Positions 14,109 to 29,459 of a stretch of 64,000 nt of DNA are shown piece after piece. A program made the position numbers and the translations under genes. A model generated the notes under the pieces. The model made no database searches, was not told where the DNA came from, and saw only the letters and a list, made by a program, of their open reading frames with translations. Source of the DNA: Akkermansia sp. (GTDB lineage: Bacteria > Verrucomicrobiota > Verrucomicrobiia > Verrucomicrobiales > Akkermansiaceae); the NCBI GenBank assembly GCA_017521405.1, contig JAFXCP010000005.1, forward strand, positions 1-64,000, given 5' to 3'. How positions within the stretch are numbered: the stretch's first letter is position 1; each line of letters opens with the position of its first letter.

Positions 14109-15776
14109 ATGTTATCCGACCGCACTAAATCTGGTATTCAGCGTGCGCCGCATCGCAGTCTGATGCGTGCAACAGGCATGACGGATGAGGACATCCGCAA
14201 GCCGTTCATTGCGATTTGCAATTCCTTCAACGAGGTAATTCCCGGGCATGTTCACCTGAATAAGGTAGCAGAGCTGATTAAAGAGGAGGTGCGCAAAGCC
14301 GGCGGAACGCCCATTGAATTTAACCTGATTGGCGTGTGCGATGGCATCGCAATGGCTCACCAAGGCATGAAATTCTCTTTGGCCAGCCGTGAGCTGATAG
14401 CCGATAGCGTGGAGACGATGCTCTCTGCCCATGCTTTTGATGCCTGCATTTGCATTCCGAACTGCGATAAGATTGTTCCCGGTATGGTGATGGGTGCCTT
14501 GCGTTGCAATATCCCCACCATCTTCTGCTCCGGTGGTCCCATGGCTGTGGGGAAGGGGCGTAACGGGGAGGATTTGGACCTTAACAGCGTATTCGAAGCT
14601 GTGGCAGCTTGTACTGCCGGTAAGATTTCCGAGGAGGAGTTGCACTATGTGGAATGCCACGCCTGCCCGGGCGCCGGCTCCTGCTCCGGTATGTTTACCG
14701 CGAATTCCATGAATTGCCTTTGCGAGGTGTTAGGTCTGGCTCTCCCGGGGAATGGTACTCTTCTCGCTCTCTCGGAGGAGCGCAAGGAATTCTGGCGTGC
14801 CGCTGCCCGCCGTGCTGTGGAAATGGCCAAGCTGGGCGGTCCCTTGCCTAAGGAACTCATCACGGAGGCATCCATTGATAACGTGTTTGCTTGTGATATG
14901 GCTATGGGCGGTTCTTCCAACACGGTGCTGCATACTTTAGCCTTTGCCGCAGAAGCCGGTTTGGATTATGACCTCAAGCGTATTGATGAGATTTCCCGCC
15001 GTACGCCCAATATCTGCAAGGTGGCACCCAGCTCTCGTTACCACATGCACGATGTCCTCCGCGCCGGTGGTATTATGACCATCCTTTCCGAAATTAACAA
15101 GATTCCCGGTGCCCTGAATACAGATGTGCCGACGGTGAGCGGCAAGACACTTGGTGAGCAAATTGCCGGTCTCAGCACGCAGGACCCGGCCGTGATTCGC
15201 CCGCTGGAGAATGCCTATTCCAAGGATGGCGGGCTTGCCGTTCTTTTCGGTAATCTTGCAGAGCAGGGCGCCATCGTCAAGAAAGCCGGAGTTCTGCCCG
15301 AAATGCTGGTACACCGCGGTCCGGCCGTTATCTTTGAAAGCCAAGAAGATGCCTGTGCCGGTATTCTGGCCGATAAGGTGAAACCGGGGGACGTGGTGGT
15401 TATTCGTAACGAAGGTCCTAAAGGCGGTCCCGGCATGCAGGAAATGCTGGCTCCTACCAGCTACATCATGGGTAAAGGGCTGGGGAATTGCGTGGCTCTC
15501 ATTACGGATGGCCGTTTCTCCGGTGCTACGCATGGTGCTTGCATAGGCCACGTATCCCCGGAAGCCGCAGAAGGCGGGCTCATTGGCCTCCTTCAGGATG
15601 GCGATATTATTTCCATAGATATTCCTGCCCGCAGTCTCAGCGTGGAGTTGAGCGATGAGGTGATTGCCGCCCGCCGTGCTGCGTGGCAGCCCACCATGCA
15701 GGAAATCTCCGGAAAATGGCTTAAGCGCTACCGCAAACTGGCAACGAATGCCAGCAAGGGGGCAGTGCTAGCCTGA
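14109..15776 (+). CDS. ilvD: Dihydroxy-acid dehydratase
   Basis: Third step of valine and isoleucine synthesis, dehydrating 2,3-dihydroxy acids to 2-oxo acids. The 555-residue length is typical. Conserved Fe-S and Mg sites are present: [38 protein letters not shown] and near the end the active Ser in [10 protein letters not shown]. The first gene of a probable three-gene run with a peptide-type transporter and an ankyrin protein, separated by 34 bp and 8 bp. ilvE lies 14 kb away in the same window, so the pathway is dispersed. The window shows no leader peptide attenuator before it. Confidence 0.97.
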
Positions 15777-15810
15777 GTTAATAACACCAAAACCCACTGA
15801 AATCTGATAC

Positions 15811-17280
15811 ATGAGCTCTACAAAACAGAACCCGGTTGTTAAGTATTTCTCTGAGTTTGCGGTGCTGAGGGAATGTGGTAAGAATTTCTGGCTGACAAAC
15901 TTCATCCAGTTTTTCGATGGCTTATCCTATTTCACACTCATCATCGTTTTCTCCCTTTTCCTGAATAAGTATTGCGGATTCCGCGATGCAGATGCCCCCT
16001 ACTGGGTGGGCATGTACACGCTGTTTATTTCTCTTTTTGTATTTGCCGTAGGCACCATATGCGATATCATTGGTCTGCGCCGCACCTACCTCATCGGCTT
16101 CACGCTGCTTATTGGCGGCCGTTTGATTTTGGGAATGGGTACGGACTTCGGTACCGGTGTGTTGCAGCTCAGTCAGGATGCCTCTCGCTATTTTGTAATG
16201 GCGGGTATTGGGATAATGTCCTTTGGTACGGCATTTATGAGCCCCTGTATTACGACTTCTATACGCCGTTTTACCACCTTACGAGCGCGCCCCACAGGTT
16301 TTAATTTCTATTACCTGTTTATGAATATCGGTGCTTTGCTGGCCGGATTCGCCATTGTGGACCCCTTGCTCAAGTGGCAGGGGGATATTGACGGCCTGCT
16401 GTGGGTGATTAACTTTGGCACGGCGTGCAACTGCATCGCCTTCGTATTTACTCGTTTTATTGACGAGGATTTCTTTGCCGTGCCGGAGGAGCGCATTGTA
16501 AAGACTGCCAAATCCGCCCAGCGCCCGTTGCAGCTTATTGCCCAGGTGGCACGCGAGCGTGCTTTCCAAAAGCTGATTGTTTTCCTTGTACTCACGCTGG
16601 GCGTACGATTGGTATTCACTCTCCAATTCCTGGTGATGCCGCAGTACTACCTGCGTACCATTGGCGATGATTTCAAACTGGGCTTCATGAACTCGCTGAA
16701 CCCCTTTGTCATCATCACGGGGCTTATTCTCATCATCCCGATTTTGAATAGGTTCTCCACGGTGAAGTTGATGATTACAGGTATGAGCATCTCTGCCTGT
16801 TCGTTGATTTTGATGGCAGTGCCGCCGCAAGTCTACTTTATCATTCCGGGAATTGAGACCATTGGACAAGCCTACTTCGTGGCTATTTTTGCTCAGATTC
16901 TCATTTTCGCCTTTGGTGAGTTGCTATTCAGTCCGCGTTTTTCCGAGTATGTGGCTCGCGTGGCTCCTAAGGACAAGGTAGCTTCCTACATGTCCCTTTC
17001 TGCGCTGCCCATGTTTATTGCCAAACCCATCAACGGGGTTGTGGGCGGATTGCTGGTTTCCTACCTCTGCTTTGATGGTATCGCCGCTAAGATGGATACC
17101 GGCCACATTGGATTCTGGGATTCCCCCGAGTTCATGTGGACCATTTACCTGATTATGGCTCTCATTTCTCCTCTGGCTATCATCCTGACAAAGGATAGCT
17201 TTGTCTCCGACCACCCGGAGGAAACTACGGCTCAGGAAACCACTGAGGAAACCACTGAGGAAGTAACCCAGAACGCTTGA
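15811..17280 (+). CDS. MFS transporter of the POT (oligopeptide) type
   Basis: 489 residues with about 12 membrane helices. The segment GFNFYYLFMNIGALLAGF resembles the second PTR2/POT signature (FY..IN.GSL), and FFDGLSYFTLI in helix 1 and GIGIMSFGTAFMSPCI fit the POT layout, so a proton-coupled di- or tripeptide uptake role is the best guess. The C-terminal tail is a Thr/Glu-rich repeat (ETTAQETTEETTEEVTQ) of unknown use. The canonical ExxER proton motif is not obvious, so substrate and coupling are uncertain. It follows ilvD closely and precedes the ankyrin gene. Confidence 0.8.
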   Translation: MSSTKQNPVVKYFSEFAVLRECGKNFWLTNFIQFFDGLSYFTLIIVFSLFLNKYCGFRDADAPYWVGMYTLFISLFVFAVGTICDIIGLRRTYLIGFTLLIGGRLILGMGTDFGTGVLQLSQDASRYFVMAGIGIMSFGTAFMSPCITTSIRRFTTLRARPTGFNFYYLFMNIGALLAGFAIVDPLLKWQGDIDGLLWVINFGTACNCIAFVFTRFIDEDFFAVPEERIVKTAKSAQRPLQLIAQVARERAFQKLIVFLVLTLGVRLVFTLQFLVMPQYYLRTIGDDFKLGFMNSLNPFVIITGLILIIPILNRFSTVKLMITGMSISACSLILMAVPPQVYFIIPGIETIGQAYFVAIFAQILIFAFGELLFSPRFSEYVARVAPKDKVASYMSLSALPMFIAKPINGVVGGLLVSYLCFDGIAAKMDTGHIGFWDSPEFMWTIYLIMALISPLAIILTKDSFVSDHPEETTAQETTEETTEEVTQNA

Positions 17281-17288
17281 TTTTTACC

Positions 17289-18116
17289 ATGTCCGATATA
17301 CAAGAACACAAGACCGAATGGCTTCCCATCATCAAGGATATGTGCATCCTTGTCTGCATTATGGGTGCGCTGGGCTATGCCTGTAATTTGGCCATGAAAC
17401 CCTTCGAATCCGTGCAGGTTACGGATTCCCTTGTATCGCTTATCCGCAAGGGCGGTGTGCAGGATGGCAAGGATGTTACCTTCCTGAAGGAGTTCGATGA
17501 GGGTTGCAAAGCTCATGCGGATTTCGTGAACACGCCGGATAGCACCGGGCGTACCCCGCTTATGTGGGCCGTGTATACGAATTTCAACAACCCGCAGCTT
17601 TCTCTTTCCAAGGATGCGGAGCGTGCCTACTACATCGATGCTTTGTTGAATGCTCCCGGGGTCAACATCCATGCCAAGGATGAGGATGGCTTCACAGCCC
17701 TCCACTGGGCCGCTTGGAGCGGCATGCCGCATTCTGCGGCGATGCTTATTAAAGCCGGGCTCGATTTGAATGAACAGGAGGGGAATGGGTATACCCCCCT
17801 TATGCTGGCTGCTATGCGTGGTAATGATACGGTGGTGAAGATGCTCCTCCAGTTGCAGGCGGATGCGAATAAGGTGAATGCTGCGGGCAAAACGGCCGCT
17901 GATTTGGCCAAGGAGTATGGGCAGGCTTACGATAAACGAGCCTCTAAGCTGTACAGCCTTATTTATGCCGCAGCCCGTTCTGCATCCTACCACAGTACGC
18001 AGAAGTTGCTTGCATTTTCTCCAGCCCCGGCGGATATTGATGCCGTGCTGAAGGAAACGGAAGCTCTGGCTCAGCGAGCTAAAGCCGCAGAGGCACCCCC
18101 CAGCGAGGAGGAGTAA
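17289..18116 (+). CDS. Membrane-anchored ankyrin repeat protein
   Basis: 275 residues. A single membrane helix at about 15-35 (KDMCILVCIMGALGYACNLAM) is followed by an ankyrin region at about 70-210: repeat cores read GRTPLMWAVYTN, GFTALHWAAWSGMPHSA and GYTPLMLAAMRGNDTVVKML. The C-terminus is Ala/Glu-rich helix. Ankyrin repeats bind proteins; such small bacterial anchors often neutralise or scaffold an adjacent membrane protein, so a partnership with the transporter just upstream is plausible (inference). The ATG at 17289 is used rather than the TTG at 17277. A strong terminator follows. Confidence 0.83.
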   Translation: MSDIQEHKTEWLPIIKDMCILVCIMGALGYACNLAMKPFESVQVTDSLVSLIRKGGVQDGKDVTFLKEFDEGCKAHADFVNTPDSTGRTPLMWAVYTNFNNPQLSLSKDAERAYYIDALLNAPGVNIHAKDEDGFTALHWAAWSGMPHSAAMLIKAGLDLNEQEGNGYTPLMLAAMRGNDTVVKMLLQLQADANKVNAAGKTAADLAKEYGQAYDKRASKLYSLIYAAARSASYHSTQKLLAFSPAPADIDAVLKETEALAQRAKAAEAPPSEEE

Positions 18117-18145
18117 ATTTGCGTTTTGTTTGTTAACTTATTTCG

Positions 18146-18182
18146 GTCACCGTTTCCCATGGGAAACGGTGGCTTGTTTTTT
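18146..18182 (+). terminator. Rho-independent terminator of the ilvD operon
   Basis: CACCGTTTCCC and GGGAAACGGTG form an 11-bp stem with a 2-nt gap, followed by CTTGTTTTTT. It ends the ilvD-transporter-ankyrin run. Confidence 0.9.
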
Positions 18183-18194
18183 GTAAGTTACGCC

Positions 18195-18223
18195 TTGCCG
18201 CAAGCCGCAAGCTGGTGTAGTAT
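18195..18223 (+). promoter_or_regulatory. Promoter of ruvA, predicting a leaderless mRNA
   Basis: TTGCCG, 17 bp, TAGTAT, then 9 bp to the ATG of ruvA. Confidence 0.65.
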
Positions 18224-18232
18224 AGGCGTATC

Positions 18233-18826
18233 ATGATATCATTTCTTCGCGGAAACGTGGCAGAGGCTTTGCCACAATGCCTGGTGCTGGATGTTAATGG
18301 CGTGGGCTATGAGGTGCAGGTGCCGCTTTCCACGTTCGACCAGCTTAACCCGGTGGAAGGGCAGTCCCTTACGCTGAAAATCCATATGCATATTCGGGAG
18401 AATGCACAAGTGCTTTACGGCTTTGCCACAGATGCAGAAAGGGATATTTTTCACTTGCTCATTGATCGTGTGAGCGGTATTGGACCTTCCACTGCCATTG
18501 CCATTTTGAGCAGCCTGAATGTAAGTACTTTTAAAACGGCCGTGGTGCAGGGGGATGTTCAAGCTATTGCCCGAGCCAAGGGCGTGGGCAAACGCACTGC
18601 GGAGCGCATTATTCTGGAGCTGAAGGATAAAATCGGGGTGGCCTCCACTTGGGAGGCTCAGCAGCAGGGTACTACCAGCCCGGCGGCAGCGGATGCGGAG
18701 CTGGCCATGGTAGCTCTTGGCTTCAAGCAGGCGGAGGCGAGAAAGGCTATTGCCTCACTTCTGAAACAGAACCCGCAGGCTTCCACAGATGCTCTGATTC
18801 GTGGTGCCTTGCGCCATTTAGGTTGA
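18233..18826 (+). CDS. ruvA: Holliday junction branch migration protein RuvA
   Basis: Binds Holliday junctions and loads the RuvB motor. The 197-residue product has the OB-fold domain (ISFLRGNV, VNGVGYEVQVP) at 1-65, two helix-hairpin-helix motifs (RVSGIGPSTAIAILSSL, AKGVGKRTAERIILELKDKIG) and the C-terminal RuvB-binding three-helix domain (ALGFKQAEARKAI) after a flexible linker. Neither ruvB nor ruvC is beside it. A squalene/phytoene synthase-like gene starts 8 bp after the stop, an unusual partner. Confidence 0.96.
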   Translation: MISFLRGNVAEALPQCLVLDVNGVGYEVQVPLSTFDQLNPVEGQSLTLKIHMHIRENAQVLYGFATDAERDIFHLLIDRVSGIGPSTAIAILSSLNVSTFKTAVVQGDVQAIARAKGVGKRTAERIILELKDKIGVASTWEAQQQGTTSPAAADAELAMVALGFKQAEARKAIASLLKQNPQASTDALIRGALRHLG

Positions 18827-18834
18827 TTTTTCTC

Positions 18835-19725
18835 ATGGATTTTGAACTTCTCAAAGCGGTATCCCGCTCGTTTTACCTGAGCATGGTGTGGCTGCCGCCT
18901 CCTATGCGCCGGGGAATTGCGCTGGGCTACATGCTGGCTCGTGCTACGGATAGTGTGGCGGATACCTCCTCGGCTTCGGAAGAAATGCGACTTCACGTAT
19001 TGCAGCAGATGGGGCGGGCTGTGGCCGGCACGTTGCCGCAAGAGGCTCTGCCGGGGTTATTGGACAATCTTGCCGGGAAAATGGCTCTTGCCCAGAATAA
19101 AGCCTCGGAAGCGGCTTTGCTTCGGCGGTTCGGAGATTGCCTTCACCTGCTGGAAAATACGCCTCCTGCAGAGCGTTTGCTCATTCGGAAGGTATTGGCC
19201 ACCATTGTGGAAGGACAGTGCTGGGATTTGAGCTTTTTCCGAACACAACCAAGCGTGCAGAGTGATGAGCAGACTCTGCGTTATACCTATTTGGTAGCTG
19301 GGTGTGTCGGTGCTTTTTGGACGCAGCTCGGTTGCCTGACGATGGGGGAATCCTTCTGCCGAGCGGAGAGGAAGGAGGAGATGGAACAGGCCGGTATCCG
19401 CTATGGGCAGGGACTTCAACTTGTGAATATCTTGCGAGACCGTGCAGAGGATGCCGCCCGGGGGCGTTCTTACTTATGTTCTTCGGTGTGGCGCTGGCAG
19501 AGCCGGGCAGAACGCTATCTGGCGGATGGCGTGGATTATGCGTCACGCCTACGCTCCTTCCGCTTGCGCTTTACGGCAATGTTGCCGGCTCTTTTGGGGC
19601 AGAAAACACTCCGCTTGCTTGCTCAGATGCCCGGCGAAGAACGTGTAAAAATTTCCCGAGCCACGGTGTATGCGACGATGCTGGAGGCGGCTTTTCGCTG
19701 TCTAATCCCTCGTTGTGTAAGTTAA
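18835..19725 (+). CDS. Squalene/phytoene synthase family protein
   Basis: Head-to-head prenyl transferase family (squalene or phytoene synthases, HpnC/HpnD). 296 residues. The first Asp-rich motif is ARATDSVADT, and the second is intact as LQLVNILRDRAEDAARGRSYL. Substrate (farnesyl or geranylgeranyl diphosphate) cannot be assigned. The start at ATG 18835 is chosen since it follows the ruvA stop by 8 bp and begins at the family start (LLKAVSRSFYLSM). No other hopanoid or carotenoid gene is in the window. It may feed squalene for hopanoids or a C30 carotenoid (inference). Confidence 0.88.
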   Translation: MDFELLKAVSRSFYLSMVWLPPPMRRGIALGYMLARATDSVADTSSASEEMRLHVLQQMGRAVAGTLPQEALPGLLDNLAGKMALAQNKASEAALLRRFGDCLHLLENTPPAERLLIRKVLATIVEGQCWDLSFFRTQPSVQSDEQTLRYTYLVAGCVGAFWTQLGCLTMGESFCRAERKEEMEQAGIRYGQGLQLVNILRDRAEDAARGRSYLCSSVWRWQSRAERYLADGVDYASRLRSFRLRFTAMLPALLGQKTLRLLAQMPGEERVKISRATVYATMLEAAFRCLIPRCVS

Positions 19726-19754
19726 AGCCTGTGGCCGATGCGGGCCACAGGCTT
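19725..19754. terminator. Convergent terminator between the squalene synthase-like gene and purA
   Basis: AAGCCTGTGGCC and GGCCACAGGCTT form a 12-bp stem with a 6-nt loop. The T tracts are short in both directions. Confidence 0.7.
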
Positions 19755-19781
19755 GAGTTAAGATGGATATATACCTTGTTT

Positions 19782-21056
19782 TTAGTGGGGTACGGGAATG
19801 GTTTGCTCGCGGTCGGGACCTACACCCACAGAACCTACGGGGCACCCCACAACCTCTCCGAAACGCTTGACGTATGCCTTGCAGTTCTCGGGCAGCTCCT
19901 CCCATGTGGTGCATTTGGAAATATCTTGCAGCCAGCCGGGTAGCTCCTCGTAAATGGGCTCGCATTTCTCCCAGTCCTCCAGAAGCGCGGGAGGATACTC
20001 GAGAATTTGGTCGCCCATGCGGTAAGCCGTGCAAATCTTAATGGTGGCGCGTTCATCCAGCCCGTCGAGGTTGGTCATGGCCATCTCATCGAATCCGTTG
20101 AACATGGCGGAGAAACGAAGCACGACACCATCGGTCCATCCGCAACGGCGCGGACGCCCCGTGGTAGCTCCGAATTCGCGGCCAAGACCATGGAGGTAAT
20201 CGGCTATCTCATCGTTTTCCGTGACGAAGGGACCGGCACCCACACGCGTGGTGTATGCCTTGCAAACGCCGATAATCTTGTCTATCTTGGTGGGAGCCAC
20301 ACCGGAACCGGTGCAGCAACCGCCGGCACTGGTGTTGGAGCTGGTTACAAAGGGATAGGTGCCGAAGTCGATATCGAGCATAGCGCCCTGCGCTCCTTCG
20401 AAGAGAATCGTCTTGCCTTCCTGTGTGGCTTTGTACAGCACGGGAATGGTATTGGTGATGTGCGGGCGGAGAACATCCGCAGCTGCCATCACGGCATCCA
20501 GCGTGATTTGCGGATCTGCCTTCGGCCAGCCCAAGCGGGCAAGCTCATCGTTAGCTGTGGTAATGCGTGCCTCCAGTACGCTCTTGAGCCGCATCGGATC
20601 CACAAAATCCACCATGCGGATGCCTATGCGGCGTGCCTTATCGGCATAGGTGGGGCCGATGCCCTGTTTGGTGGTGCCAATCTTCTGGTCTCCCAGAGCC
20701 TCCTCCTGTGCAGCATCTATGTCCTTGTGAATGGGCAGTACCACGTGGGCTCGGTCGGAGATGAGGAGGTTCTGCGGGGTGATGTTTACCCCCAAATCGC
20801 GCAGGTAGTTGATTTCATCCACAAGAGCGGTGGGGTTGATGACTACTCCGTTGCCGATGACATTTACCTTATTCTCCCAAAGAATACCGGAGGGAACAAG
20901 GTGGAGGATGTATTTCTTACCATTGGCGATTACGGTGTGTCCGGCATTGCTGCCTCCCTGACTGCGAACCACATAATCTGCCGTTTCCGTAAGGAAGTCA
21001 ATAACTTTGCCTTTACCTTCATCTCCCCACTGGGAGCCGATGACGAGAGTATTCAT
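19782..21056 (-). CDS. purA: Adenylosuccinate synthetase
   Basis: GTP-dependent first step from IMP to AMP. Length (424) and all main motifs are standard: the N-terminal P-loop QWGDEGKGK with catalytic Asp, GGSNAGHTV with catalytic His, GTTKQGIGPTYADK, GAQGAMLDIDFGTYPFVTSSN, and TGRPRRCGW. It follows carA by 22 bp on the same strand, so purine and pyrimidine precursor genes probably share the carA promoter. Confidence 0.97.
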   Translation of the reverse strand: MNTLVIGSQWGDEGKGKVIDFLTETADYVVRSQGGSNAGHTVIANGKKYILHLVPSGILWENKVNVIGNGVVINPTALVDEINYLRDLGVNITPQNLLISDRAHVVLPIHKDIDAAQEEALGDQKIGTTKQGIGPTYADKARRIGIRMVDFVDPMRLKSVLEARITTANDELARLGWPKADPQITLDAVMAAADVLRPHITNTIPVLYKATQEGKTILFEGAQGAMLDIDFGTYPFVTSSNTSAGGCCTGSGVAPTKIDKIIGVCKAYTTRVGAGPFVTENDEIADYLHGLGREFGATTGRPRRCGWTDGVVLRFSAMFNGFDEMAMTNLDGLDERATIKICTAYRMGDQILEYPPALLEDWEKCEPIYEELPGWLQDISKCTTWEELPENCKAYVKRFGEVVGCPVGSVGVGPDREQTIPVPH

Positions 21057-21078
21057 GGTAATGGAATGGAGAGGGTGG

Positions 21079-22218
21079 TTACTTGGTCTGGTTAATCATG
21101 GCAATCAGTTCCGCAAAGGCGGGTGCTGTGCCTTCTGCCGAGGCTGTGGCCGACGGAATAAATTGGACACCGGCAATGGGCAAGCTCTTGTGGCGGAAGC
21201 CGGAGATGGCTCCGTCGTTAAGATTTTTATGGGTAATCTCTACATCTGCGGAGAGGCTTCCTTCCTTAATCGTGAAGGTGACGTTTTCCGAGCCGACGAG
21301 CATTTTTCCTGTGCGGAGGTCCTTAATGGGCTGGTTACCGCCGTGGTGCCCATCCGGAAGCTGCTCTGTGCTACCGCCCAATACAATGCCGAGAACCTGT
21401 GCCCCCAAGGCTATGCCGAATATGGGTAATTTGCCTTGCAATTTGGCAATTTCTGCCTGAAGTGCTGTGAGGGTGGAAGGATCTCCGGGCCCATTGGAAA
21501 GGATAACGGCATCCGGCGCCATTCCCAGCACAGTCTCAGCCGGAGTGGAGGCCGGAACCACAGTCACATCAAACCCATCCTGACGCAGACTGCGGAGGAT
21601 GCTGCGCTTTACGCCCAAATCGTACACAACCACCGTGCGGGTGGCAGGGGAAAGCTCAAAGTAATTGGAGAGGTTCCCCGTGCTTTTGTTCGGAAGTTTC
21701 CACACTCGGGACTCACCTTCCCAGTGGTAGGGAGCGGCTGTGGTAACCTTGGAGACAAGCTCGCTTCCGGCGAGCGGAGCGGAGGCTTTAGCCTCAGCTA
21801 CGGCCTCTTCCTCGGAAAGTTCCGTGCTGACGCAGGCTCGCATTGTGCCTTGCGTACGCATGATGCGAGAAAGTTTGCGGGTATCAATCCCCTCAATGCC
21901 GGGAACGCCGTGGCGTACGAGCCAGTCATTCAGGGATTCCTCTGCCCGCCAGTTGGAGAAGAGTTCGGCATGCTCTTCCACCACAAGGGCGCTAAGGCTA
22001 AGCTTCTCACTCTCGTTATCGTCCTCGTTGATGCCGTAGTTGCCAATCTGCGGATACGCCATGATGAGGATTTGACCGCAATGGGTAGGGTCGGAGATAA
22101 CCTCTTGGTATCCCGTCATTGCTGTGTGGAAGCAGATTTCACCAGTGGTGGTGCCGGTGGCACCAAATGCAGTGCCTGCGAAAATAGTACCGTCTTCTAA
22201 TGCAAGAATAGCTTTCAT
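21079..22218 (-). CDS. carA: Carbamoyl-phosphate synthase small subunit, glutaminase triad missing
   Basis: CarA normally hydrolyses glutamine and channels ammonia to CarB for pyrimidine and arginine synthesis. The 379-residue protein is full length: N-terminal CPSase domain (MKAILALEDGT, FHTAMTGYQEV) and a class I glutaminase fold (ILSNGPGDP, FGIALGAQVLGIVLGG, ITHKNLNDGAISGFRHK). The nucleophile elbow, normally GICLGHQ, has Ala270 for the catalytic Cys and Ala273 for the following His. The C-terminal HPE pair reads IPS (Ile354, Ser356), so catalytic His and Glu are gone too. Reading the codons confirms these changes. ATG 22218 is used because the -10 box covers the upstream ATG. Probably supports an ammonia-dependent synthase. 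Confidence 0.93.
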   Translation of the reverse strand: MKAILALEDGTIFAGTAFGATGTTTGEICFHTAMTGYQEVISDPTHCGQILIMAYPQIGNYGINEDDNESEKLSLSALVVEEHAELFSNWRAEESLNDWLVRHGVPGIEGIDTRKLSRIMRTQGTMRACVSTELSEEEAVAEAKASAPLAGSELVSKVTTAAPYHWEGESRVWKLPNKSTGNLSNYFELSPATRTVVVYDLGVKRSILRSLRQDGFDVTVVPASTPAETVLGMAPDAVILSNGPGDPSTLTALQAEIAKLQGKLPIFGIALGAQVLGIVLGGSTEQLPDGHHGGNQPIKDLRTGKMLVGSENVTFTIKEGSLSADVEITHKNLNDGAISGFRHKSLPIAGVQFIPSATASAEGTAPAFAELIAMINQTK

Positions 22219-22240
22219 TCGCGTTATATTGAGCCGTGCC

Positions 22241-22269
22241 ATACTAGCAGATGCACCCCTGATAGGCAA
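22241..22269 (-). promoter_or_regulatory. Promoter of the carA-purA unit
   Basis: On the minus strand TTGCCT, 17 bp, TAGTAT with TGC before it (extended -10), 22 bp before ATG 22218. It rules out the longer frame that begins further upstream. Confidence 0.72.
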
Positions 22270-22348
22270 GGCAATAATGTCGCATTCCCCAAAAATATGC
22301 GCCATACGTTCCGTTAGCGGGAAAATTCGTCATTTTTGCCAAGATAGC

Positions 22349-22378
22349 TTGCAATCAGACCAAAGATGTGATTATAAT
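22349..22378 (+). promoter_or_regulatory. Promoter of the YqjD-like gene cluster
   Basis: TTGCAA, 18 bp, TATAAT. The leader of about 60 nt contains a small hairpin (GAACGC and GCGTTC) and then an A-rich stretch before the ATG at 22446. Confidence 0.65.
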
Positions 22379-22445
22379 TTACACATCATAGATGAACGCA
22401 TGCGGCGTTCTGTATCAAAACTTTTAACCAATAGAGAAATACAAT

Positions 22446-22817
22446 ATGGATAACGAAGAAGTGAAAGAAACGAGTCCCGCGCCGGAGGCTGCTGCGCCCG
22501 CGCCCTCTTCCGATGCATGTGAACGCCTTAATGCTGCCCGCCGTTTTGCTACGGAGCAGTACGATAAAACGCTTCGCTATGCCGGGGAGCAGTACGATAA
22601 ACTTCGCCGCGCTGCCGGAGAGCAGATGGAGCATGTGCGTGAGTATACGGATCACGCTCGCGTTCAAATCAACGAAGGCTGGGATAAAACCTGCGATAAG
22701 GCTAAGGAACTGCACCACGCCGGGGAAGAGTATGTGAAGACGAATCCCACGGGCAGTATGCTTGGGGCACTTGGTGTAGGCGTGTTGCTCGGGCTTCTGC
22801 TGGGTGGACGCCGTTAA
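22446..22817 (+). CDS. DUF883/ElaB-YqjD-like membrane-anchored protein
   Basis: 123 residues. A long amphipathic helical part with repeated EQYDKTLRYAGEQYDKLRRAAGEQ pattern (here given in parts: EQYDKTLRYAG, EQYDKLRRAAG) leads to a C-terminal hydrophobic segment GSMLGALGVGVLLGLLLGGRR, the typical DUF883 tail anchor ending in RR. E. coli YqjD and ElaB are tail-anchored and bind ribosomes in stationary phase. The next two genes resemble YqjE and YqjK in order and topology, which supports the assignment. A function in stationary-phase or envelope stress is likely. Confidence 0.8.
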   Translation: MDNEEVKETSPAPEAAAPAPSSDACERLNAARRFATEQYDKTLRYAGEQYDKLRRAAGEQMEHVREYTDHARVQINEGWDKTCDKAKELHHAGEEYVKTNPTGSMLGALGVGVLLGLLLGGRR

Positions 22818-22895
22818 TTTGCTCCCTGCTTTAGGCTTGTGGTGCGGCGCGCACATGCTGTTGGCGCGTGTTGCGTTCTCGCCTTGATGCTGGCT

Positions 22896-23333
22896 ATGCT
22901 TTCTTGGCTAAAATCTCCTGCTGCCGCAAAGGCTTCTCTCAAAGAGGAGTCTGCGGCGCTGTTGCAGCAGGCGAAAGGGGTGGCTGTTCGTACCGCAGAG
23001 CATGCTAATGCTTTGGCGGAGTTGTTTTCTGCGGAGCTTAAGGAATACGCGAGCTGTCAGATTCAGCGTCTCATCATGCTGGTGCTGGCAGCTATCCTGT
23101 TGTTGGGTGCGTATTTTTTACTGTGTGCGTTCATTGTGCTGTTTGCTGCTGTGTGGGTGGGCTATATTTGGGCTACCGCCTTGGTGTGCCTGCTCAATAT
23201 CGCTCTTGCTGTGGCTCTTCTTTGCAGGGTGCGCCGTTTGGCAGGAAAACAGCTTGCTCCGGCTACGCGACAAGAACTTATAAATGATTGGCAATGTCTG
23301 AAACTGCTCATCAAAGAAAACAACAAGCCTTAA
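22896..23333 (+). CDS. YqjE-like membrane protein (putative phage holin superfamily 6)
   Basis: About 145 residues with an amphipathic N-terminal helix (AALLQQAKGVAVRTAEHANALAEL) and two membrane helices at the middle (LIMLVLAAILLLGAYFLL, then ATALVCLLNIALAVALL). This matches the YqjE/PF07332 layout. The start is uncertain: GTG 22839, ATG 22887 and ATG 22896 are in frame, and none has a clear ribosome site. It overlaps the next gene by 40 bp. Second member of a YqjD-YqjE-YqjK-like trio. Confidence 0.72.
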   Translation: MLSWLKSPAAAKASLKEESAALLQQAKGVAVRTAEHANALAELFSAELKEYASCQIQRLIMLVLAAILLLGAYFLLCAFIVLFAAVWVGYIWATALVCLLNIALAVALLCRVRRLAGKQLAPATRQELINDWQCLKLLIKENNKP

Positions 23334-23674
23334 TTCGCGTGGCGGAATCTCGTTTGTCTGCCGTGCATGCGGTGGATAGCGTACGTGTTTGTTCCAAACG
23401 CTGGACGACTGCTTTGCCGGTTTCTCCGAAAGTCATTTTGCATATGGCAACAGGGGTAGGCGTGGGATCCGTGTTGCTTTCAACCGTGCTTGGTGCCAGA
23501 AAAAGCAGTCGTAAAGCGCAAAAAGTTGCCGCCCAGCCGTGGAGAAGCCTGCTGGCTCAGATTGCGGCAGCTGCACTTGTCCCCTTTGTGCAGGGCTATG
23601 TGCGCCGTCGCGCTTCGGATGCCTCTCCCTTCGGGGAGATTTGTGCTTCGATAAATCGTTTTTTCGGTAAGTAA
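23294..23674 (+). CDS. YqjK-like small membrane-associated protein
   Basis: 126 residues, unassigned by itself. It has a basic N-terminal half with a hydrophobic segment at about 47-65 (SPKVILHMATGVGVGSVLLS) and a second one near 85-100. Position after YqjD- and YqjE-like genes and basic character suggest a counterpart of E. coli YqjK; that is inference. The ATG lies 40 bp inside the preceding gene, implying coupling. Confidence 0.6.
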   Translation: MSETAHQRKQQALIRVAESRLSAVHAVDSVRVCSKRWTTALPVSPKVILHMATGVGVGSVLLSTVLGARKSSRKAQKVAAQPWRSLLAQIAAAALVPFVQGYVRRRASDASPFGEICASINRFFGK

Positions 23675-23694
23675 TTGAGAAAACTCTCCTAATT

Positions 23695-24855
23695 ATGAGT
23701 AAAAAAGTATTTGTATCCGGTGCGTTCAATGTATTACACGCCGGGCATATTCGTTTTTTTGAGGACGCCCGTGCCTTGGGTGATTATTTGATTGTATCGT
23801 TCCCGCCAGCGGATTTGCTTTGGAAACTGTATGATAAAAAGTCCGTCTTGGACGATGCGGACAAGATGGCTGTTATTTCCTCTCTCTGTATGGTGGATGA
23901 GGTGGTTTTTTCTACGGATGATGATGCCGCACTTTCTTTCCGCTCTGCATTTCTGGCCATCAAACCGGATATTCTTGCCGTAACAACGGACGATTTATAT
24001 AAAACGGAAAAAGAACAATTCTGCAAGGAGCAGGGGGTGGAATTTGTGGTGTTGGAGAAAACGCTCCCTTCCGGGAAGGCGCAGGTTTCCAGCACTCAGG
24101 TATTGGACCGTGTAAAGGCGCCGGCTCATGTGCCGTTGCGTGTGGATTTTGCCGGGGGCTGGTTGGATGTCCCGGAGAATTCCATTCCCGGGGAGTATGT
24201 GGTGAATTGTTCCGTATCTCCCACGGTCTCGCTTAAGGAATGGCTGTATCGGCAAGGTGCCGGTATGGGGGGCAGTGGCGGCTGGAGTGTGTTGAATGGT
24301 TGGGATCCAGTGGCTTCCGAGCTGGGGTTGGGAGTTGGCTGGCAAGACCCCGCTGTCATTGCAGAGACGGGGGCTTGCGTGTGGAAATCCGGGCACAAGC
24401 CGGTTCTCGATTTTAAGAATACGGGTAGTTTCCTCCGTGGTCGTATGGCTGTATACGATACTCGCATTAAGCACAACACGCCCGGTCTTGCGGGGTTGAC
24501 TCGCGATTTTACTAAAATTGCCAAGGCTGCACGCATTGCGCGTTTAGGCGTGCAGGAACAGGATGTAACCGTGCTGGCTGTAGCCGTGCAAATGAGTTAC
24601 CAGCTGCAATTGGAGGAGGGGCAGGCACCCTTGCCGGATATTGGTGGGCAGTTGGCTCATAAGTATTGCGGCGGTGGTCATGGTGGGTACGCGCTTTACC
24701 TGTATGAGACCGAGGAGGCTCGCAATGCTGCTTTGGATGCATGCGAGGATTTGTACCCCATTGAGCCGTACTGCCGTACTTTTGGCAAGGATGAACAGGT
24801 GGAATGGGCTCCGCGTTTCTTGCAGCGCCTTCGCGATCGTGGTGTGATTAAATAA
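23695..24855 (+). CDS. Fused nucleotidyltransferase-GHMP kinase (mini-Fkp-like)
   Basis: 386 residues in two parts. Residues 1-135 are a cytidylyltransferase-type domain: SGAFNVLHAGHIRFFEDA (HxGH), KPDILAV and VSSTQVL, the ISTT-like end motif. Residues 140-386 look like a GHMP sugar kinase: motif 1 PLRVDFAGGWLDVP (as in heptose and fucose kinases), motif 2 GAGMGGSGGW and motif 3 CGGGHGGYALYL. GHMP kinases make sugar-1-phosphates and the partner domain would attach a nucleotide, as in the much larger Bacteroides Fkp. Motif 3 is not canonical, so kinase activity needs proof. It heads an operon with a second nucleotidyltransferase, a cupin isomerase and a GT25 gene. Confidence 0.75.
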   Translation: MSKKVFVSGAFNVLHAGHIRFFEDARALGDYLIVSFPPADLLWKLYDKKSVLDDADKMAVISSLCMVDEVVFSTDDDAALSFRSAFLAIKPDILAVTTDDLYKTEKEQFCKEQGVEFVVLEKTLPSGKAQVSSTQVLDRVKAPAHVPLRVDFAGGWLDVPENSIPGEYVVNCSVSPTVSLKEWLYRQGAGMGGSGGWSVLNGWDPVASELGLGVGWQDPAVIAETGACVWKSGHKPVLDFKNTGSFLRGRMAVYDTRIKHNTPGLAGLTRDFTKIAKAARIARLGVQEQDVTVLAVAVQMSYQLQLEEGQAPLPDIGGQLAHKYCGGGHGGYALYLYETEEARNAALDACEDLYPIEPYCRTFGKDEQVEWAPRFLQRLRDRGVIK

Positions 24856-24883
24856 TTTTCTCTTCGATTAACAATTATAACTT

Positions 24884-25303
24884 ATGCCTAAAGTATTTGT
24901 ATCCGGCTGTTTCGATGTGCTGCACAGCGGGCACATTGCCTTTCTGGAAGAGGCTGCCAGCTATGGAGATGTGTATGTTTCTATCGGTTCGGATGCCACG
25001 GTGATGGCTCTCAAGAATCGTAAAACAATGTACACGGAGGAGGAGCGTAAATACATGCTGGAAGCCATCCGTTATGTAAAGAAAGTCTATATCGGCCCGG
25101 ACACGGGGAAGATTTTAGACTTTGCACCTCTGCTGGATGAGGTAAAACCGGACATTTTCTTTGTGAATGCGGATGGTACGAGTGATGAGAAAAAAGCTTT
25201 TGTGGAATCCAAGGGAATCCGTTATGTAACGAGTTCTCGCATTCCTCACGAGGGGCTGCCTACCCGCTCCACGACCAGTATCCGTGAAACGCTGAAGAAA
25301 TGA
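24884..25303 (+). CDS. Stand-alone cytidylyltransferase-like nucleotidyltransferase (TagD/RfaE-C type)
   Basis: 139 residues, near the length of glycerol-3-phosphate cytidylyltransferase (TagD). Motifs: VSGCFDVLHSGHIAFLEEA (HxGH), TEEERKYMLEAIRYV (the ..ER.. substrate motif), KPDIFFVNADG and the end motif RSTTSIRE. It probably transfers CMP or AMP to a phosphorylated sugar or polyol; the substrate is not defined by sequence. Its stop overlaps the ATG of the next gene by 4 bp. It shares an ancestry with the first domain of the upstream fusion, which hints at a duplication. Confidence 0.88.
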   Translation: MPKVFVSGCFDVLHSGHIAFLEEAASYGDVYVSIGSDATVMALKNRKTMYTEEERKYMLEAIRYVKKVYIGPDTGKILDFAPLLDEVKPDIFFVNADGTSDEKKAFVESKGIRYVTSSRIPHEGLPTRSTTSIRETLKK

Positions 25304-25677
25304 GAGCTTCTCATACAACGTATACCATGGGCGAGAAAGGCGTTCGCCCATGGGGAGAGTGGACCGTGTTGGAATTGCAACCCAACGTGGTGATTAAGCG
25401 TTTGCAGGTTTATCCGGGTGGGCGCATTTCCTTGCAACGCCATCAGTTCCGCACGGAGAGATGGATTGTCACGGAAGGCGTTGCTACCGTGCGTTGCGAT
25501 GATAAGGTGTTGCAGCTGCATGTGGGGGAGTCCACGATGATTCCTTGTGGTTGCATACACCGCCTCAGCAATGAAGGAGAACTACCTCTTGCCATCATCG
25601 AAATCCAAATGGGCTCTTACCTTTCTGAGGATGATATAGAGCGATTTAATGATGATTACGGTCGCGCGGATTCATAA
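25300..25677 (+). CDS. Mannose-6-phosphate isomerase type II-like cupin
   Basis: 125 residues matching the C-terminal cupin of bifunctional ManC/AlgA-type enzymes: RPWGEWTVLE, GRISLQRHQFRTERWIVTEGVATV, MIPCGCIHRLSNEGELPLAIIEIQMG and YLSEDDIERFNDDYGR. The metal ligands (Gln, His, Glu, His) can be read in these blocks. It may interconvert fructose-6-P and mannose-6-P, or epimerise/isomerise another sugar phosphate in this operon. Starts with an ATGA overlap with the previous gene. Confidence 0.88.
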   Translation: MRASHTTYTMGEKGVRPWGEWTVLELQPNVVIKRLQVYPGGRISLQRHQFRTERWIVTEGVATVRCDDKVLQLHVGESTMIPCGCIHRLSNEGELPLAIIEIQMGSYLSEDDIERFNDDYGRADS

Positions 25678-25692
25678 CATCTCCTGAGAATA

Positions 25693-26565
25693 ATGCAAGA
25701 AGATAGGACAATGAATACAGGCGTTCTTCCTGCCCCGGATGGTATAGCGGTCATTAACATGGATACGCGTCCGGATCGCTTTGCACAATTTATGGAGAAA
25801 GCCGGAGTTTATTTCCCGGCGGAGCGTATACACCGTGTAAGTGCCGTGGTGGGGCGCGAATTGCCTACATATGGTCAAGCCCCTTGGTTTACAGAGCGCA
25901 CAGGAGAGCGTTCGGGCTTTTGGGGCGGAACAGGAGGTTGTGCTCTTGCACACCGTAAGGCCATTGAATTGGCCAAGGCAAAAGGCTGGCGTCACGTCCT
26001 TGTTTTTGAGGATGATGTGGTGATGGAAACTCAACCGGCAGCAGGGGCTCTTCTGCAAAAGGCATTGGAGGAGCTTAAGGGACCTTACATCCTCTATCTC
26101 GGTTATAATCGTCCTGCTCCTTACGGTTCTTGCTGCATGGTGCAGGGGGGGATGGAGCTTTGGAAGACGGAGGGCGTCATTGCGGCGCATGCTTACATCG
26201 TATCCGCAGAGTTGTATGATAGGCTTCTGGCTCATATGCCCACGCAGGACAACGTCTGGGAATGGCTTTCCCGCTACCGTGCCATTGATGTATTGTACCG
26301 CGATTTCGTGCCATTCTGGTCCGGCGTGAGTGTATATGTGATGCATCCCATCATTTGCGTGCAGGATGATGAGTTTTCCGACATCGGGCAGGATGCTGCA
26401 GCCGGAAAGGTTCTCGCCTGCCGCCAATCCCCCAAAAAAATGAATGGGTGGAGAGCAATAACCTCGCCGCTTCGCCGATTAAAAATTAAATTAAATTCTA
26501 TCCGTACGCACCGTCGAGCCCTTAATGGTGGGCTGCCGGGGAAGCGTAAACGCCGTAAAAAGTGA
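25693..26565 (+). CDS. Glycosyltransferase family 25 (LPS/glycoprotein type)
   Basis: 290 residues. The N-terminal NMDTRPDRF and the block ALAHRKAIELAKAKGWRHVLVFEDDVVM (EDD metal-binding signature) are typical of GT25 beta-galactosyltransferase-like enzymes. After about residue 250 the protein ends in a strongly basic tail (GKRKRRKK), likely a membrane or nucleic-acid-like electrostatic anchor. It is the last gene of the sugar activation operon and probably uses its product. ATG 25711 is an alternative start. Acceptor unknown. Confidence 0.87.
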   Translation: MQEDRTMNTGVLPAPDGIAVINMDTRPDRFAQFMEKAGVYFPAERIHRVSAVVGRELPTYGQAPWFTERTGERSGFWGGTGGCALAHRKAIELAKAKGWRHVLVFEDDVVMETQPAAGALLQKALEELKGPYILYLGYNRPAPYGSCCMVQGGMELWKTEGVIAAHAYIVSAELYDRLLAHMPTQDNVWEWLSRYRAIDVLYRDFVPFWSGVSVYVMHPIICVQDDEFSDIGQDAAAGKVLACRQSPKKMNGWRAITSPLRRLKIKLNSIRTHRRALNGGLPGKRKRRKK

Positions 26566-26652
26566 TTTTTTTGCAACAAATCAAGCCGTTGTCATTGATT
26601 ATGCTTGAAAAAATTCGCTAAAGGCGAGATATTAAAGCCTCACCTAGAAATT

Positions 26653-28566
26653 ATGTCTGAACCTAAAGAACGCAAGACTCTGGAAGAACGCAACCAGGCG
26701 AGTGATTTGGAGCGGCTGCGCCATTCGTGTGCACACGTGCTGGCCGCAGCTATTTGCCGCCTCTGGCCTCAGGCACAGCTTGCTGCCGGCCCCGCCATCG
26801 AAAATGGTTTTTACTACGATATAGAATTGGACCACAATATCTCTACCGCCGAGTTTGAATTGATTGAGGCGGAGATGAAGAAGATTGTGAAGGAAAATCA
26901 AACCTTCACACGCACAGTTCTCAGCCGCGAGGAAGCTATGCAAATGGCTCAGAGCGGTGAGTTGGGCTCTGTGGCTCCGCGCTCTGTTCCTTCCAAGTTT
27001 AAGGTGGATTTGATTAACCGCATCCCGGAAGGAGAGGAGATTTCCATTTTCCGTAATGGGGATTTCACGGACCTCTGCGCCGGTCCCCATGTGGGCCGTA
27101 CGGGAAACTGTAAAGCCTTTAAGGTGATGAGTGTGGCTTCTGCCTATTATATGGGCGATGCCAGTGGATCCCGCTTGCAGCGTGTGTACGGCACCTGTTT
27201 CCCGAACCGTACCCAGCTGGAAGAACATTTGGCGCGTCTGGAGGAGGCCAAGAAGCGCGACCACCGCCGCCTTGGCCGCGAGATGGGGCTCTTTACCATT
27301 GATGAAATGGTGGGGCAGGGGCTTGTTCTTTGGAAGCCGAAAGGTTCCATTGTGCGCCGCGAGCTTCAGGATTTCATCACGGAGGAGTTGGACCGCATCG
27401 GCTATTCTCAGGTATTTACTCCCCACATTGGCAAATTGGACCTTTATATGACCTCCGGTCACTGGGAGCATTACAAGGAAAGCCAGTTCCCCCCCATTCC
27501 GGACCCGGACGATTTCCGCAAATTGCGGGATGAGAATGCCACCTGTGCAGATCTCTTCAATGCGCTGGATACGCACACCATCAGCGGCTTCATGCTTAAA
27601 CCCATGAACTGCCCCCACCATATCCGCATCTATGCGAATGAACCCCACTCCTACCGCGATTTGCCGGTTCGTTTGGCTGAATTCGGCACGGTATACCGCT
27701 GGGAGCAGAGTGGTGAGCTGGGCGGCATGACCCGCGTGCGCGGATTCACTCAGGACGATGCCCATATCTTCTGCCGCCCGGATCAAATTAAGGAGGAAGT
27801 ACAGCAGTGCATTGGCATTGTGAAACACATTCTCGGCACTCTTCAGATGAATGATTATCGCGTGCGCCTTTCTCTGCGCGATAAGGATTACTCCGATGCC
27901 AAATACGTGGGCACCATTGAGAACTGGAAACTGGCGGAAACCGCCCTCCGCGAGGTGCTTTCCGAAAATGGCTTTGATTACATTGAAGCGGAGAATGAAG
28001 CCGCTTTCTATGGCCCGAAGATTGATTTCATCGTACGCGACGTCATAGGCCGCGATTGGCAGCTTGGCACGGTGCAGGTGGATTACAACCTGCCGGAACG
28101 TTTTGATCTCTCCTATACGGGAGCGGACAATAAGCCCCACCGCCCGGTGATGATTCACCGTGCTCCCTTCGGCTCCATGGAGCGCTTTACCGGTCTGCTT
28201 ATCGAGCATTTTGCCGGCAAGTTCCCCACATGGCTTGCCCCGGAACAGGTGCGCGTATTGCCCATTTCCGACAAGGTGGCTGAGTTTGCGGAGCAGGTGC
28301 GCGCTCGCTTGGCTTCGCGTTTTGTACGCGTTAAACTCGATGATGCCCCCGATAAGATTGGCGCGAAAATCCGTAATGCCCGTTTGGAGCGCGTACCGTA
28401 CATGGTCGTGGTTGGGCAGCGCGAGGCCGAGGAAGGCAAAGTCTCCATCCGCCACCGAGATTTGGATGTCATAGGCACCATGACGGTGGATGAATTCGTG
28501 GAAGCTCTGTGCGCAGAGATAGATGCCCGACTTATTGCCCCGGAAATGAAGGCGGCGGATGCCTAA
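26653..28566 (+). CDS. thrS: Threonyl-tRNA synthetase (without N-terminal TGS domain)
   Basis: 637 residues. It begins directly with the editing domain (LRHSCAHVLAAAI, with the HxxxH zinc/editing site, and FTDLCAGPHV) and continues to the class II core: LKPMNCPHHIRIY (Cys ligand of the catalytic zinc), RLAEFGTVYRWEQSGEL (motif 2) and HRAPFGSMERFTGLLIEHF (motif 3). The anticodon-binding domain is VRVLPISDKVAEFAEQV onward. The TGS domain of E. coli ThrRS is missing, which is known in other bacteria. ATG 26653 is used; the ORF could extend 16 codons to a TTG. infC follows 83 bp later as in most bacteria. Confidence 0.97.
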   Translation: MSEPKERKTLEERNQASDLERLRHSCAHVLAAAICRLWPQAQLAAGPAIENGFYYDIELDHNISTAEFELIEAEMKKIVKENQTFTRTVLSREEAMQMAQSGELGSVAPRSVPSKFKVDLINRIPEGEEISIFRNGDFTDLCAGPHVGRTGNCKAFKVMSVASAYYMGDASGSRLQRVYGTCFPNRTQLEEHLARLEEAKKRDHRRLGREMGLFTIDEMVGQGLVLWKPKGSIVRRELQDFITEELDRIGYSQVFTPHIGKLDLYMTSGHWEHYKESQFPPIPDPDDFRKLRDENATCADLFNALDTHTISGFMLKPMNCPHHIRIYANEPHSYRDLPVRLAEFGTVYRWEQSGELGGMTRVRGFTQDDAHIFCRPDQIKEEVQQCIGIVKHILGTLQMNDYRVRLSLRDKDYSDAKYVGTIENWKLAETALREVLSENGFDYIEAENEAAFYGPKIDFIVRDVIGRDWQLGTVQVDYNLPERFDLSYTGADNKPHRPVMIHRAPFGSMERFTGLLIEHFAGKFPTWLAPEQVRVLPISDKVAEFAEQVRARLASRFVRVKLDDAPDKIGAKIRNARLERVPYMVVVGQREAEEGKVSIRHRDLDVIGTMTVDEFVEALCAEIDARLIAPEMKAADA

Positions 28567-28649
28567 TCGAATACTTTCCCCGACTGCACAGTGCAAGCCG
28601 GGTTCCCCATACAGAACACACGCATATCATAACCCACAACACACTACAA

Positions 28650-29309
28650 GTGCCAGCCCCACAGAAACCCAATAAGCCCGCTAATCGTCCCACCCGGGAC
28701 AAAGCCGGAAAAACGCCGCAGATTCGTGTCAACGACCGTATCCGCGCTCCCAAGGTACGAGTTGTTACCGCAAAAGGTGACCAGCTCGGAGTCATGGCCA
28801 CTCGCGATGCCCTCGCCAAAGCCAAGGAAATCGGTCTCGACCTCGTCGAGGTAGCTCCTAACGCGGATCCTCCCGTTTGTCGTCTTATTGACTATGGTAA
28901 GTTCAAGTACATGCAGGCAAAACTGCAAAAGAACAACAAAGCCAAGGTCACAAAAATGAAGGAGGTGAAGCTGCGCGTGGGCACGGATGTGAATGACTAT
29001 AACGTCAAGATGGCTCGCACGGAGCAGTTCTTGGATCATGGGCATAAAGTGCGCTTCCAATTGCGCTTCCGCAACCGTGAAAATGCCCACCGAGAGTTAG
29101 GGTTGGATGTAATGGCCAAAGTGGTGGAGGATATGAAAACCATGGGTCAGGTGGACCAGCCTGCTAAGCTGGCCGGTAACACCGTTACCATGGTGCTGGC
29201 TCCCTTGCCTGCCAATCAGCGTGTAAAGAAATTCAAGAAGTACGAGGAGGAGGACTTCGATACCGAGTCCGAGGAGTTCGATGCTACGGATGACGTAGCG
29301 GAGGAATAA
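28650..29309 (+). CDS. infC: Translation initiation factor IF-3 with acidic C-terminal extension
   Basis: Binds 30S subunits and proofreads start codon choice. Hallmarks are QIRVNDRIRAPKVRVV, DLVEVAPNADPPVCRLIDYGK, KVRFQLRFRNRENAHRELG and MVLAPLP. The GTG at 28650 is the best start; no ATG lies in frame before the domain, and the rare-codon starts usual for infC (ATT, ATC) further upstream cannot be excluded. After the standard end the protein adds a 30-residue acidic tail (YEEEDFDTESEEFD). Unlike the common thrS-infC-rpmI-rplT order, a terminator follows immediately. Confidence 0.93.
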   Translation: MPAPQKPNKPANRPTRDKAGKTPQIRVNDRIRAPKVRVVTAKGDQLGVMATRDALAKAKEIGLDLVEVAPNADPPVCRLIDYGKFKYMQAKLQKNNKAKVTKMKEVKLRVGTDVNDYNVKMARTEQFLDHGHKVRFQLRFRNRENAHRELGLDVMAKVVEDMKTMGQVDQPAKLAGNTVTMVLAPLPANQRVKKFKKYEEEDFDTESEEFDATDDVAEE

Positions 29310-29335
29310 AGCCCCCCATCGTTCTTCTACCTCTT

Positions 29336-29371
29336 GCCACCGCCGGGATTCATGCCGGCGGTGGCTTTTTT
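29336..29371 (+). terminator. Rho-independent terminator of thrS-infC
   Basis: A perfect 11-bp stem (GCCACCGCCGG with CCGGCGGTGGC) and eight-base loop, followed by six T residues. It separates infC from ilvE. Confidence 0.95.
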
Positions 29372-29394
29372 CTCCTCATGGCATACTTTTATAC

Positions 29395-29422
29395 TTCACA
29401 TGCGGGTAAAAGAGCGTATAAT
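29395..29422 (+). promoter_or_regulatory. Promoter of ilvE
   Basis: TTCACA, 16 bp, TATAAT. The -10 box covers the ATG at 29421, so that longer start cannot be used and ATG 29460 is the start. Confidence 0.75.
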
Positions 29423-29459
29423 GGCAGCGTTCACGAAAATTTCCCCCCCATCTCTCATT

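Follow-up and report, generated by a model that had tools for sequence, protein, structure and literature searches.

In Escherichia coli the small subunit of carbamoyl phosphate synthetase (CPSase), CarA, hydrolyses glutamine by means of the triad C269/H353/E355, and a review treats glutamine as the physiologically relevant donor for this bacterium. The E. coli enzyme is also able to use ammonia, in a reaction carried by the large subunit (PMC6245113). Vertebrate CPS I (human CPS1) retains a glutaminase-like domain with the catalytic Cys replaced, together with its synthetase sites, and the CPS III of Alcolapia fish is presented in PMC7657897 as shifted towards ammonia while keeping the triad and lacking one glutamine-binding residue. 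Here we analyse a 64,000-nucleotide stretch of an Akkermansia genome (hereafter, the window), which carries a carA gene devoid of all three triad residues, and follow this gene through the genus and the phylum Verrucomicrobiota. We consider it likely that the triad-less Akkermansia CarAB is an ammonia-dependent enzyme in which CarA has no catalytic role, and thus an analogue of vertebrate CPS I. The two are alike in the retained glutaminase-like domain, the replaced Cys and the preserved synthetase sites; they differ in that Akkermansia has two subunits (CarA and CarB are separate chains and not one polypeptide), in that His and Glu are mostly lost as well, and in that the Akkermansia enzyme would be biosynthetic (not ureagenic) and of separate origin. 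A shift towards ammonia would be common to this enzyme and to Alcolapia CPS III, although the fish enzyme keeps the triad that the Akkermansia clade loses.

The triad-less CarAB is a variant of a known enzyme, contrary to the rule stated for bacteria: glutamine use, taken to be general among bacterial CPSases, is contradicted by a whole clade devoid of the glutaminase residues. With its dozens of species the clade is a set of natural experiments on the working of a synthetase that has no active glutaminase and on the route of ammonia entry, and offers a parallel to the evolution of the urea-cycle enzyme. Among the titles and abstract openings listed (the top 1-15 per search) in the open-access PMC literature, most subscription journals lying outside this scope, none reports a triad-less bacterial CarA. 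The relevant features of the window are as follows.

21079..22218, minus strand: carA, CPSase small subunit without the glutaminase triad; 379 amino acids plus stop (NCBIfam TIGR01368 and PF00988)
21649..22218, minus strand: residues 1-190, the N-terminal part of CarA and, of its two halves, the one that the triad-less clade has conserved better (column conservation)
21082..21648, minus strand: glutaminase-like (glutamine amidotransferase, GATase) part, residues 191-379, decayed (column conservation and PF00117 score)
21397..21420, minus strand: FGIALGAQ at the nucleophile elbow (residues 267-274) in place of the usual FGICLGHQ, with GCC as codon 270 (translation, alignment)
21151..21165, minus strand: QFIPS, residues 352-356, normally QYHPE; His and Glu gone (translation, alignment)
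21130..21147, minus strand: loop of residues 358-363, near E. coli P358-G359-P360, here with A359, S360 and A361 (alignment; pLDDT below 50 in the structure model)

The reading frame (21079-22218) is stop-free over 379 amino acids in translation, and the family match spans its full length (387 bits against TIGR01368, with a cut-off of 307, and 172 bits against PF00988); the structure model predicts the fold of E. coli CarA. Automatic annotation hides the loss, as NCBIfam scores this protein above the cut-off for a 'glutamine-hydrolyzing' subunit. An initial annotation had described the replacement of Cys, His and Glu alongside the conservation of ITHKNLNDG and GFRHK, and both descriptions hold: translation and alignment with the ICLGHQ and QYHPE motifs of relatives give Cys270>Ala, His354>Ile and Glu356>Ser, and the two conserved motifs are found in the protein. 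The elbow His, which lies outside the triad, is replaced too (Ala273). The PF00117 score is 124 bits, as against 185-196 in the main CarAs of the listed intact species, and the P, G and P of the P358-G359-P360 loop are kept in 49/49 intact Akkermansia CarA rows.

The window genome (G000; 1.985 Mb, 38 contigs, 99.67% complete, 2.54% contamination) gave a single PF00988 match in the profile search. Thus the second, intact carA that the annotation had named as grounds for its own refutation was looked for and not found in a 99.67%-complete assembly. Its one CarB (1082 amino acids) is encoded on contig C35, and carA lies on contig C30.

The triad loss extends well beyond the window species. The nucleophile Cys was absent from a CarA in 38 of the 77 Akkermansia genomes, 27 of which hold a triad-less CarA only (16 of them at least 90% complete) and 11 a triad-less plus a second, intact CarA; a further 38 have intact copies only, and one (G079, 84% complete, a member of the triad-less clade) has no CarA match. 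The three triad positions show 17 letter patterns, gapped ones included (AIS, SHA, GTE, GTA, GQA, GL- etc.); carA runs off contig ends in G003 and G031, the former ending before the His and Glu positions and thereby showing the lost Cys only. All 38 genomes with a triad-less CarA are multi-contig assemblies (each with at least 38 contigs), and the five public triad-less relatives found are all metagenome-assembled genomes (MAGs); the labels of three name as source the sheep cecum, the dairy cattle rectum and the roe deer rectum. An intact Cys/His/Glu copy was present in all 82 other Verrucomicrobiota read, i.e. 22/22 of the same order, 20/20 of the same family (chosen among the genomes listed) and 40/40 of the wider phylum. 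The last group comprised thirty genomes from the low-scoring end (some low scorers being unread) and ten of the same class; G157, among the lowest scorers, was left out as its gene runs off the contig. Comparison with other Akkermansia and Verrucomicrobiota, proposed in the initial annotation, thus shows that the loss is common to a whole Akkermansia clade, although the replacing letters are not shared.

We used two trees to trace the origin of the loss. The CarA tree (FastTree, catalytic motifs removed) comprised 107 of 112 rows, with five pieces shorter than 300 amino acids left out (two from G008, one from G031, two from G067), and recovered the triad-less CarAs of Akkermansia as a single clade (support 0.97). 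The CarB tree, which cannot be biased by the CarA site, drew on a set of 60 CarB loci, fewer than the profile matches (among the triad-less species, only a second-type CarB was found for G005 and G024 and none for G021 and G072, and a contig-end piece from G031 was left out); it grouped G079 and every one of the 33 triad-less species read into a single clade (SH-aLRT 99), with the window species as its first branch (83). The nucleophile codon is TGC or TGT in the 49 intact rows; of the triad-less rows 34 have GGN and three AGC, while that of the window species has GCC, so that one TGC>GGC change followed by single steps to GCC or AGC explains all codons. From trees and codons taken together, it is most likely that the loss occurred once, as Cys>Gly, in a common ancestor from which about 38 known species descend, and the window species probably branched first. 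Independent loss in each species is disfavoured, since the CarB tree joins all 33 triad-less species and the codons fit single steps. His and Glu seem to have been lost after Cys, and more than once (three SHA rows retain His; GTE, GDE and GSE rows retain Glu). A C269G variant of E. coli CarA has reportedly been engineered. The natural Ser of three Akkermansia rows resembles the engineered C269S of E. coli CarA (1c30).

The remainder of CarA has decayed unevenly. In a comparison of 69 intact with 37 triad-less rows (the extra G037 copy and short pieces left out), the near-invariant columns of intact CarAs were kept in 31/52 cases in the N-terminal part and in 19/73 in the GATase part, the lost ones including the nucleophile, its His and Glu, S47, H312, K202 and the P358-G359-P360 loop (E. 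coli numbering). At a CarB distance of 0.11-0.14 the GATase parts differ by 0.53 among triad-less species (239 pairs) as against 0.19 among intact ones (8 pairs), and the N-terminal parts by 0.39 as against 0.22, the pairs in both comparisons not being independent. Frames are nevertheless open, with no internal stop reported in the listed triad-less copies (those of G003 and G031 end at contig ends), and among the pairs listed the nine near triad-less ones (G002-G070, G003-G084, G023-G035, G018-G027, G012-G036, G068-G074, G033-G075, G071-G085 and G007-G009) have a dN/dS (Nei-Gojobori) of 0.06-0.23 for carA and of 0.01-0.06 for carB; the median for carA of intact species is 0.14 over 197 pairs. 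Between near relatives, triad-less carA is thus under purifying selection. Position G293 (E. coli numbering) was considered as the site of a tunnel block of the kind present in human CPS1; the change is not specific, given that Ala or Cys occupies this position in 24/49 intact Akkermansia rows.

CarB has remained largely unaltered. Out of 367 columns invariant in 25 intact-type CarBs (16 main and 9 second-type), 338 are also invariant in the 33 triad-less species, and in 18 of the 29 exceptions, all between columns 31 and 78, just one letter deviates. The catalytic residues (R129, R169, E215, H243, Q285, E299, N301 and R303) are unchanged in all ungapped rows, as are the ammonia-gate residues C232, A251 and A314. 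Both ATP-grasp sites are kept, and five motifs of the second site show little or no variation. The gate residues are named by human numbers in PMC4655335. Two substitutions (E. coli numbering), T279>Ser/Ala and I296>Val, occur in the CarB of 32/33 triad-less species and may represent matching changes in the ammonia-receiving half; the window species keeps T279 and I296, as do 25/25 intact-type CarBs.

Carbamoyl phosphate should still be consumed, since the OTCace_N profile (which does not tell aspartate and ornithine transcarbamoylases apart) matches at least once in 77/77 Akkermansia genomes, with two matches in 75 and one in the other two, two being expected for the pair of enzymes; loss of need for carbamoyl phosphate is disfavoured on the same grounds. 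As for nitrogen, the ammonium transporter profile PF00909 matched in 0/77 Akkermansia genomes as against 14/14 control genomes, which fits life in ammonia-rich surroundings. PMC5902328 gives a Km of 41 mM for ammonium for an A. muciniphila enzyme and describes such concentrations for the gut. Glutamine synthetase loss was rejected as a cause, as a match is present in 71/77 Akkermansia genomes, including that of the window (a 723-amino-acid frame, the length of the GlnN type).

Ammonia-dependent synthesis is the best reading because the CarB residues are kept and the transcarbamoylase genes persist, and these same sequence features support the initial proposal of free ammonia use, or of CarA as a scaffold for CarB. 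The substrates for carbamoyl phosphate would be bicarbonate, ATP and, in place of glutamine, free ammonia. CarA, having lost the glutaminase residues, would have lost the glutaminase chemistry too; its fold, kept by prediction, may allow it to act as a partner without catalytic function, which would keep CarB in its working conformation and might provide a way in for ammonia. CarB, which keeps the residues for ammonia use, would be the active part, and as the ammonia reaction already resides in the large subunit of the E. coli enzyme, no new chemistry is required. The triad loss would be tolerated because Akkermansia live where ammonia is plentiful. We lean, with less assurance, towards a broader statement: an obligately ammonia-dependent CPSase in about 38 gut species, marked by an ancestral Cys>Gly change, decay of the pocket and the CarB changes T279S/A and I296V, with eleven species holding a high- plus a low-ammonia enzyme.

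Several observations weigh against ammonia-dependent synthesis or the history proposed for it. Eleven triad-less species possess an intact second CarA, and the multi-contig state of all 38 triad-less genomes makes missed second copies conceivable. In G024 (99% complete) and G005 (80%) a triad-less CarA is present, yet only a second-type CarB was found. The E. coli CPSase needs very high ammonia, a use called 'likely physiologically irrelevant' (PMC6245113). Intact Akkermansia also have no ammonium transporter match; hence the ammonia-rich gut, invoked in the initial annotation as permitting the loss, is plausible as a setting but does not explain why one clade only lost the triad. The CarA tree sets the window species beside one subclade (0.83), and not first. 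Lastly, distant triad-less pairs among those listed reach a dN/dS of about 0.35-0.61, and of as much as 0.86 for the GATase part. Constraint on CarA was therefore relaxed, at least for a time, in the deeper parts of the clade, whereas near relatives show it either restored or never lost.

Among other explanations, the one that survives best, though we hold it to be unlikely, is that CarB alone uses ammonia and that a different function preserves CarA, such as a role in regulation, in stability or assembly, or in binding a new ligand at the old glutamine pocket. The E. coli large subunit can reportedly make carbamoyl phosphate from NH3 in vivo (Rubino 1987), and a GATase part that diverges fast (0.53 vs 0.19), yet is under purifying selection in near pairs, would agree with a new task. 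No new conserved pocket emerged, however: between 36 triad-less and 24 intact CarAs, differing letters held at 85% or more per group occur only at residues 34 (M>V), 206 (N>S) and 270 (C>G). We find it quite improbable that CarA is a relaxed, dispensable remnant, with carbamoyl phosphate coming from another enzyme or from outside. The fast divergence, the dN/dS of up to about 0.6 between distant pairs and the missing CarA of G079 speak for such decay, and they are countered by the absence of stops in the listed copies, the dN/dS of 0.06-0.23 in near pairs and the retained CarB catalytic sites and transcarbamoylase genes.

Still less credible is a separate glutaminase, or other GATase subunit, supplying CarB with glutamine-derived ammonia. 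Glutamine should be available, as glutamine synthetase and other glutamine-using enzymes are present, but the remaining PF00117 matches in the window genome (named from sequence) are only PyrG, GuaA and HisH, each with its own synthase, the search covering this family. All three retain Cys, His and Glu (PyrG, GICLGMQ and CQYHPE; GuaA, GVCYGMQ and QFHPE; HisH, GICIGQQ and QFHPE), so glutamine is still used elsewhere, and among class I enzymes only CarA is affected; that glutamine amidotransferases were lost across the board is thereby rejected for class I, the class covered by the search. Assembly error, contamination or a wrong frame, for which one might cite the multi-contig assemblies and the public MAGs, is refuted for practical purposes by the clade-wide pattern (open frames in 38 genomes united by both trees, and five named MAGs from at least two naming series).

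The second, intact CarA of the 11 triad-less species is of another type (termed 'b'), a homologue of the triad-less one within the same genomes. In the CarA tree the b-type copies group with the intact copy of G037 (0.96), and the five b-type CarBs read are 58-61% identical to that of the window species; the b-type CarA was probably gained by transfer, with its own CarB, and may be used when ammonia is scarce. The G024 cluster (L171, G024:C31) reads GlnN, PurF-like, CarA, NadE-like, CarB (PurF and NadE named by eye), possibly a nitrogen-assimilation operon with a glutamine-type CPSase; glutamine synthetase matches also adjoin b-type CarAB in G011, G018 and G068 (four loci compared, G024 included). 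Two CarB matches but a single CarA were recorded in the Akkermansia genomes G004, G013, G015, G017, G059-G067, G081, G082 and G098. In the four read (L220, L223, L226 and L237) the second CarB is about 52% identical to that of the window species; such a CarB, lacking a CarA partner, could use ammonia as well.

Elsewhere in the order, G037 (of another family; L065, L014) holds a triad-less CarA copy plus an intact one, the former probably an independent case, and in G231, which bears the same genus code, CarA likewise matched twice, with no value better than 3.3e-41. No CarA match was obtained in 16/145 Verrucomicrobiota genomes (G111, G113 and G118 among them), nine of which fall in one genus code (g51). 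In G177, G182, G187 and G190 CarA lies inside open frames of 1228-1593 amino acids, possibly CarA-CarB fusions. In the single-contig Akkermansia G067 (L146, G067:C1:811000-815000) an intact-triad carA is split into frames of 252 and 196 amino acids, an apparent frameshift or sequencing error.

Around carA, the stretch from 15000 to 30000 of the window contains no Rfam match at gathering score, and two nearby open frames (25693-26562 and 22446-22814) have no Pfam match. Downstream lies one further gene on the same strand.

19782..21056, minus strand: purA, adenylosuccinate synthetase (PF00709, 585 bits)

The gap between carA and purA is 22 bases, a spacing from which the two genes are probably co-transcribed.
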